Part shown: positions 46,960 through 48,587 of the stretch, one piece after another | Layout of the letters: every line of letters starts with the position of its first letter | Numbering within the stretch: position 1 is the stretch's first letter | The notes under the pieces: generated by a model | Databases searched by the model: none | What the model saw: only the letters and a program-made list of their open reading frames with translations | Told to the model about the DNA's origin: nothing | Assembly: GCA_040757775.1 (NCBI GenBank) | Contig: JBFLWQ010000001.1 | Span: forward strand, 1-58,916 | Direction of reading: 5' to 3' | DNA length: 58,916 nucleotides | Source of the DNA: Thermodesulfobacteriota bacterium | GTDB lineage: Bacteria > Desulfobacterota > UBA8473 | Position numbers and translations under genes: made by a program

Positions 46960-47035
46960 TTCAGTCACCTCCTTCTAAACTTGAATCCTTATGGTCTTAA
47001 ACTGCAATCCTTTCATACATATCAGCAAATAAATT

Positions 47036-47231
47036 GAGACCTTTGAAAAACTGCTAATAGTAGCATTTTGACCCATTCGCTTTCCTCAGGGCAGGCCCCT
47101 TCGTCTGTCATTCCGAACGAAGTGAGGAATCCTGTCTTTCTGCTCAGGATAAACTCAAATCTTGAACAGATTAAAACCATTAAGATTTCTCGTCGCTATT
47201 GCTCCTCGAAATGACAAAATTCAAAGGTCTT
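47036..47231. mobile_element. MITE-like element with AAATT target duplication, copy A
   Basis: The left end is GAGACCTTTGAA and the right end TTCAAAGGTCTT, complementary at 11 of 12 bases. AAATT flanks it on both sides (47031-47035 and 47232-47236). It contains no ORF of note; inside are GTCATTCCGAACGAAG and CTCGAAATGAC words. This occupies most of the 46960-47303 gap. Confidence 0.75.
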
Positions 47232-47303
47232 AAATTGGTAGCATAGATACATTTTCAAATCAAGAAAAAATTTATGTTTGAACAAGTTTCTCAAGGGTTC
47301 TGA

Positions 47304-48332
47304 TTAAGTTTTACCCCATTTTTGAATGTATTTCTCCTTTACCTCGGGATTCAGCCAGCCAACTGGCCATTCCCCCTTTAAAACCCGGGCTACCTCTATC
47401 GCCGGACGGTGGGTAAGTTCTAAAAAAGCCGGTATCGAAAAGTGACCAGAATGGCCTGTCACAATAAAGTTGTCGAGCTTCAACAAAGGGTCATCCTGAG
47501 CAATAGGTTCCTGTTCCGTAACATCCACAGCAGCCCCGGAGATTATACCCTCTTTAAGTGCTGTATACAAAGCTTTACTTTCAATAATAGGCCCCCGTGC
47601 TGTGTTGACTATGAAGGCTGTGGGCTTCATCTTTTTCAGTTCATTCAATCCTATCATATGCTTTGTTTCTGTGGTAAGAGCACTGTGAACAGACAGAACA
47701 TCTGATTCTTTGAGGAGTTGATCTAAATCCATCCGTTCAACTCCCAATTCTGATAAAATGCTCTCAGGTGCGTAAGGATCATAAACTATGATTCTCATAT
47801 CAAAGCCCTTTGCTTTTGGAACAAGGGCTCTTGGAATTCGACCGAATCCGAGAAGCCCTAAAGTTTGCCCTTTCAGCCGAGACATCTTTGGCCATATCTG
47901 CTTTTGCATATCCGGGTCAGGTTCACTTTTCCATCCTCCACTTTTCACAAATTCATTAAGTTTGACTATCTTTCTGGTGCAGGAAAGGATAAGAGCCATA
48001 GTGTGGTCTGAAACCTCTTCCAGACAGTAATCAGGTATATTGGCTACCAAGACGCCATGTTCGGTAGCTGCAGCTACATCAAGCTTGTCATAACCAATTC
48101 CCATGCTCTGGATAAACCTGCACCTGATCAATTTTTCAATCACCTTTCTGGAGAATGGCTGAAAAGTAGCTACCCCTATTATAGCATCGGCATCGTGGGC
48201 TGTATCGATGAGTTCATCCTCGGACATACAAAACTTCTTAACCACCTCAACATCCAATCCTTCCCCTTTAATAAGCTTTTCATAATCTGGCGCCATAGGA
48301 ATATCGAAGACCTGAGCTATCTTAAAACCCAT
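47304..48332 (-). CDS. D-2-hydroxyacid dehydrogenase family protein
   Basis: The 342-residue NAD-dependent enzyme has the Rossmann loop LGFGRIPRALVPKAKGFD near residue 165. The catalytic Arg is in VNTARGPI, the Glu in DVTEQEP and the His in VTGHSGHFS. It would interconvert a 2-hydroxyacid and a 2-oxoacid; phosphoglycerate dehydrogenase-like proteins are the nearest group but there is no ACT domain. ATG 48332 follows GGGGGAGGT; the frame open from 48404 reads back into an adjacent MITE. The gene is flanked by two related MITE-like elements, so it may have been part of a mobilised segment. Confidence 0.9.
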   Translation of the reverse strand: MGFKIAQVFDIPMAPDYEKLIKGEGLDVEVVKKFCMSEDELIDTAHDADAIIGVATFQPFSRKVIEKLIRCRFIQSMGIGYDKLDVAAATEHGVLVANIPDYCLEEVSDHTMALILSCTRKIVKLNEFVKSGGWKSEPDPDMQKQIWPKMSRLKGQTLGLLGFGRIPRALVPKAKGFDMRIIVYDPYAPESILSELGVERMDLDQLLKESDVLSVHSALTTETKHMIGLNELKKMKPTAFIVNTARGPIIESKALYTALKEGIISGAAVDVTEQEPIAQDDPLLKLDNFIVTGHSGHFSIPAFLELTHRPAIEVARVLKGEWPVGWLNPEVKEKYIQKWGKT

Positions 48333-48355
48333 TTTACCTCCCCCTTTCCCGATTT

Positions 48356-48485
48356 GAGACCTTTGAAAAATGCCCAATTTATCATTGCGAACGAAGTGAA
48401 GCAATCTTTGTGCCCTGCCCTGAGATTGCTTCGCCCCGATTTGTCGGGGCTCGCAATGACTGAAAGCGAGTTTTTCAAAGGTCTC
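48356..48485. mobile_element. MITE-like element with GATTT target duplication, copy B
   Basis: Perfect 15-base terminal inverted repeats, GAGACCTTTGAAAAA and TTTTTCAAAGGTCTC, are flanked by GATTT at 48351-48355 and 48486-48490. The 130-base element holds a CATTGCGAA/CTCGCAATG inner pair and GAAGCAATC words. No protein is encoded. Ends match copy A at 47036-47231. Confidence 0.85.
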
Positions 48486-48587
48486 GATTTAAGAGAATTT
48501 AAGAGATTGTTAAAAAAATATCCCTTTCTCTCTTAACATGGATTTTTTACCTGAGCAAAAGCATGTATATACCGATACCAAAAAGTG

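Follow-up and report, generated by a model that had tools for sequence, protein, structure and literature searches.

Two short repeats flank a dehydrogenase gene in the window, which is the whole 58,916-nucleotide stretch of DNA analysed here, from the 50-contig, 3.1-Mb draft genome of an uncultured deltaproteobacterium. The two copies are very probably MITEs mobilised by an IS5-family (IS5_4) transposase, and they very probably arose by two independent insertions rather than as parts of a composite element. The pair is an ordinary, well-supported kind of mobile DNA, and the link between such ends and IS5 elements has already been published for Porphyromonas and Neisseria elements. The present case extends the partnership of GAGACC-ended IS5 elements and MITEs known from these two genera to Desulfobacterota. 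What it adds is a target preference, full-length elements that match, and a duplication firmly set at 5 bp.

Table 1. Positions of the two elements, their target-site duplications, and the gene between them in the window
Feature	Position	Strand	Size	Details
Target-site duplication, left of copy 1	47031-47035	.		AAATT
MITE copy 1	47036-47231	.	196 bp	ends GAGACCTTTGAA / TTCAAAGGTCTT
Target-site duplication, right of copy 1	47232-47236	.		AAATT
D-2-hydroxyacid dehydrogenase gene between the elements	47304-48332	minus	342 aa	length counted from the conserved ATG
Target-site duplication, left of copy 2	48351-48355	.		GATTT
MITE copy 2	48356-48485	.	130 bp	perfect 15-bp terminal inverted repeat GAGACCTTTGAAAAA
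Target-site duplication, right of copy 2	48486-48490	.		GATTT

Both elements had inverted ends with 12 bp in common, and their terminal inverted repeats were 12-15 bp long. Exact GAGACCTTTGAA was found at three of the four ends; the fourth, on the right of copy 1 (47220-47231, AAGACCTTTGAA), differed by one mismatch. A transposase open reading frame was absent from both copies, and both were shorter than 500 bp. The core of copy 1 contained TCATTCCGAACGAAGTGAGGAATCC...CGAAATGA, and the core of copy 2 was a palindrome, TCATTGCGAACGAAG...CTCGCAATGA. No Rfam match was found in the window. The preliminary description of this DNA had reported two MITE-like elements with shared ends, each with its own duplication. 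Its positions for the elements and duplications proved exact to the base, and the shared 12-bp ends were recovered with the single mismatch in copy 1. Their MITE-like nature was borne out by short length, lack of a transposase, inverted ends, 5-bp duplications, empty sites, and many dispersed copies.

The gene between the elements matched the NCBIfam D-2-hydroxyacid dehydrogenase superfamily, with every match below the curated cut-off. Its open reading frame as listed opens at a TTG within copy 2; the relatives conserve the ATG at 48332. Copy 2 ends 23 bp upstream of this ATG, and the Shine-Dalgarno stretch is spared. The gene lies in a minus-strand run of acyl-CoA/thiolase/MaoC/SDR type genes, consistent with the earlier statement that the pair brackets a 2-hydroxyacid dehydrogenase gene within an operon. 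The order is thiolase, DUF35, pyridoxamine-oxidase-like gene, copy 2, dehydrogenase, copy 1, two MaoC dehydratases, and SDR, where all names except that of the dehydrogenase are readings of the translations.

The corresponding locus was compared among relatives. Deltaproteobacteria MAG SURF_34 (G002) belongs to the same genus, and its dehydrogenase protein is 86% identical to that of the window. Both insertion positions are unoccupied in this genome (...CAGCAACTGAATTGCTAGCATAG... and ...CTTTCATAATTTAAGAGG...). The empty sites equal the window minus the element and one duplication, and the alignments were ungapped over the junctions. As the preliminary description had predicted, each target is present in a single copy: GAATT at site 1 (AAATT in the window) and AATTT at site 2 (GATTT in the window). 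Because AATTTAAGAG occurs again just downstream of site 2 in the window, an alternative alignment is possible there; the site is empty in both alignments. Since the duplications of the two elements differ and both sites are empty in G002, two separate insertions are indicated, as had been proposed. The comparison supports the view that they flanked the dehydrogenase gene independently, in the lineage of the window and after its split from the genus mates. In two members of the same family (G005 and G007), the gene order was the same, with the dehydrogenase between its usual neighbours and without these elements. The dehydrogenase gene is native to the operon. In the genus mates G003 and G004, the upstream intergenic gap contained different, incomplete ends of this type, a sign that it has been hit more than once. 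At the G004 locus (L049, G004:C11, 80-1400), the dehydrogenase and the MaoC gene are separated by an inserted substrate-binding-protein gene that has a MITE-type end on just one of its sides.

The ends are not chance occurrences: the 3.1-Mb genome contained 15 copies of GAGACCTTTGAAAA, one of them within a coding gene, and none of the reversed pattern. With one mismatch allowed, GAGASCTTTGMA gave 168 occurrences versus 53 in the control. Further copies sharing these ends, for which the preliminary description had proposed a search, are present in this genome. Together, this genome and those of the genus mates contain dozens of them, with cores of several different kinds. The own-genome subfamilies are distinguished by their cores (TCATTGCGAACGAAG..., GTCATTCCGGCGAAAGCC..., GTCATTTCGACTGGAAGG..., and GAAGTACCCCTTTCG...) and have identical ends; the GAAGTACCCCTTTCG... 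subfamily has an additional outer end 21 bp further out. A sister of copy 1 with the same right half lies at about 129.2-129.34 kb of another contig of the same genome (L023, G000:C3). A second outer end (GAGACCTTTGCACAACCTGCC-GAGAGCTTTGAA), 21 bp beyond the inner one, was seen at L021, L024, L067, and L082 (own genome and G003/G004), and at L021 and L067 the 5-bp duplication was located at the outer end.

Scanning the genome collection for ends plus core gave at least 119 stretches, mostly in Desulfobacterota MAGs. The bearers included Syntrophaceae, Smithella, Desulfobacteraceae, and Ca. Desulfaltia; outside Desulfobacterota, single matches were found in one Caldisericaceae and one Thermodesulfovibrionia MAG. 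Element length in the family was mostly 80-260 bp, and cores varied strongly between subfamilies while ends were fixed. The duplication was examined in 139 distinct end-pairs of less than 450 bp from many genomes. An exact 5-bp duplication was present in 85 of them, and the best length was 4 in just one. When flank pairing was shuffled, 5-bp duplications averaged 1.0 with a maximum of 5. The 54 pairs without an exact 5-bp duplication are partly false pairings or decayed copies. The target preference was A-Y-(5 bp, A/T-rich)-R-T. In viral contigs, GAGACCTTTGCACAAC gave nine matches, with paired ends in none.

The mobiliser was sought with a Neisseria IS5 transposase sequence that is 84-93% identical to copies in a Neisseria record. 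With this query, IS5-family elements were found in 23 of 395 genomes of the phylum and in two of ten MITE-bearing genomes. Full-length elements were about 1.2-1.5 kb long and had 5-bp duplications; their asymmetric ends matched, with GAGACCTTTGCACAACC on the upstream side of the transposase and GAGACCTTTGAA on the downstream side. The duplications were TGAAG in the MITE-rich Desulfobacteraceae CSMAG_2422 (L330), AAATA at L286, and ATCCC at L305; L309 and L313 also had the ends and exact 5-bp duplications. The element at L311 had the ends GAGACCTTTGCAAAA and GAGACCTTTGAAAAA, the latter equal to the MITE end, and a 6-bp repeat (TCTTCC) on both sides. The Neisseria IS5 copy had the ends GAGACCTTTGCA/TGCAAAGGCCTC and the duplication ATGCC. 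The transposases scored above the curated cut-off for NCBIfam IS5_4 and matched DUF772 and DDE_Tnp_1 in Pfam, and the D, D, and E residues were conserved in all eight that were aligned.

The preliminary description had also proposed a search of the genome for a transposase whose ends start GAGACC. An intact IS5_4 transposase was found in the same-genus G004 (L303, G004:C18) as a 377-codon open frame between GAGACCTTTGCACAACC and AAGACCTTTGAATTTTCC; this element had both ends and no matching 5-bp flanks. The window's own genome contained only a 29-residue relic (G000:C21:14789-14875); a full-length IS5 element with such ends was absent, although repeats can be missed in a 50-contig draft. A second, decayed transposase copy in G004 had a perfect GAGACCTTTGAATTTTCC end, and a decayed copy in G016 had the ends GAGAGCTTTGAA/GAGACCTTTGCA. 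In G026:C41 (L338/L332), about 1.3 kb of other sequence interrupted an IS5_4 transposase gene that had GAGACC-type ends on the outside. Three other candidates for a parent or autonomous element were rejected. The DDE_Tnp_1 match in the own genome (C11, IS1182-like, cut by the contig end) was without GAGACC ends; around the PF13586 transposases of the relatives, GAGACC end-pairs with a shared flank were absent; and a 1.08-kb end-pair around a PEP-CTERM gene in G247 had no duplication. MITEs and IS elements were alike over no more than about 12-18 bp, which argues that the MITEs did not arise by simple deletion from the IS copies seen.

On this evidence, we infer mobilisation in trans by the IS5_4 transposase. 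Each of the two MITEs is a short non-coding stretch within 12-15 bp ends recognised by an IS5-family (NCBIfam IS5_4 type) DDE transposase. A full-length element would supply the transposase in trans, and the enzyme would bind GAGACCTTTG(A/C)A at both MITE ends. It would then excise or copy the MITE and insert it, with a preference for A-Y-(5 bp)-R-T sites, at cuts staggered by 5 bp, which would produce a duplication of that length. In the lineage of the window, two insertions took place independently on either side of the dehydrogenase gene once this lineage had split from its genus mates.

The clean duplications had been taken as a sign of recent activity, and this claim held in part. The insertions are younger than the split from relatives at about 85% protein identity. 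Against it, the nearest relative of copy 2 in its own genome was 84% identical, and the transposase there is only a relic. The nearest relatives of copy 2 overall were 93% identical and located in G002 and G003, with flanks unlike this region of the window. Present activity in the host is unlikely, with no intact transposase seen in the 50-contig draft. The copies are probably stranded now, since a 29-residue relic is the only transposase trace in that draft genome.

BrickBuilt (MITEPgRS) of Porphyromonas gingivalis is a non-coding element with the terminal inverted repeat GAGACCTTTGCA/TGCAAAGGTCTC; its repeat GAGACCTTTGCA has been linked to the IS5-family ISPg1/ISPg9 and ISNme1, and one comparison of filled and empty sites gave a short duplication (PMC4596501). 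The elements described here resemble BrickBuilt in being non-coding, in having an IS5-matching terminal inverted repeat, and in showing filled and empty sites with a short duplication. BrickBuilt, however, has a 23-bp minisatellite core, is limited to Porphyromonas, and has reported duplications of varying length, whereas MITEs of the window type have a palindromic core, almost always 5-bp duplications, and hosts mainly in Desulfobacterota. IS5 elements of the ISNme1/ISPg1 type (NCBIfam transpos_IS5_4) have the same 12-bp ends, with a 5-bp duplication in the Neisseria copy, and their Desulfobacterota relatives encode IS5_4 transposases. Unlike the window elements, with which they have 12-18 bp in common, they encode a transposase. 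No earlier report of Desulfobacterota MITEs with these ends was found in a literature search that was incomplete. Abundant short intergenic repeats also include the Correia elements and NIME/dRS3 repeats of Neisseria. The ends and TA target of Correia elements are unlike those of the window elements. Some cores here (GTCATTCCGGCGAAAGCCGGAATCC) presumably resemble dRS3-type palindromes; dRS3 repeats are not known to be bounded by these terminal inverted repeats.

The preliminary description had further suggested that the pair could move the dehydrogenase gene as a unit. The outermost ends of the pair are inverted and 96% identical over 23 bp, and a composite transposon of 1450 bp (47036-48485) would be similar in length to a full-length IS; a transposase could therefore in principle pair the outer ends. 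The outer flanks of this unit differ, however (AAATT versus GATTT), each element has its own duplication, and none surrounds the whole. The gene is also not absent or displaced in relatives: in G002 it has orthologous genes on either side and none of these elements, and G005 and G007 are syntenic. In 244 loci (1.24 Mb), none of the inverted ends lying 700-3500 bp apart shared a 5-bp flank, even when four matching bases of five sufficed. A composite transposon is thus highly improbable, and the idea of a mobile gene cassette at this locus, tempting but wrong, is removed.

It is also quite unlikely that the elements are kept mainly as regulatory or RNA-processing hairpins (REP/BIME-like), with the core palindrome selected and the spread incidental. 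Such a role would agree with the very stable hairpins of the transcribed strand, one long hairpin for copy 2 (-64.1 kcal/mol, z -9.2) and a strong one for copy 1 (-63.9 kcal/mol, z -3.75), with insertion between genes of an apparently co-directional operon, and with a core motif, TCATT(C/G/T)CG...CG(C/G/A)AATGA, common to most subfamilies and also present outside these ends. However, transposition is evident from the exactness of the 5-bp duplications, the conservation of the ends, and the empty sites, and subfamily cores vary strongly while the ends stay fixed. The operon of the relatives is without these copies, so they are not needed there. Two independent insertions of IS5-type MITEs remain the preferred explanation.

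A related but separate idea, that the cores (TCATTNCG...CGNAATGA) are independent modules riding on MITEs with unrelated ends and different transposases, is rather doubtful. If true, MITEs would be shuttles for a selected hairpin module spread across phyla. Modular cores that recur in MITEs whose ends differ are the aspect that most deserves a specialist's attention. A few similar cores were bounded by inverted repeats of the CTCGTAAAAAGTC type in place of GAGACC ends (L137, 7035-7110; L100, 5064-5152), which suggests that cores are shared between MITE families with different ends. A weaker case was seen at L176 (5515-5598). Core-pattern scans gave one viral contig and none in 395 genomes, with a spacing that was probably too strict. 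In the window itself, a stand-alone palindromic core, TCATTGCGAGCGGCAACGAAGCAATC...CTCGCAATGA, lies at 1853-1925; it has no GAGACC ends. On its left is ACTCAAATAAGTTGAC, which is similar to the left flank of a further core in the same genome (L350).
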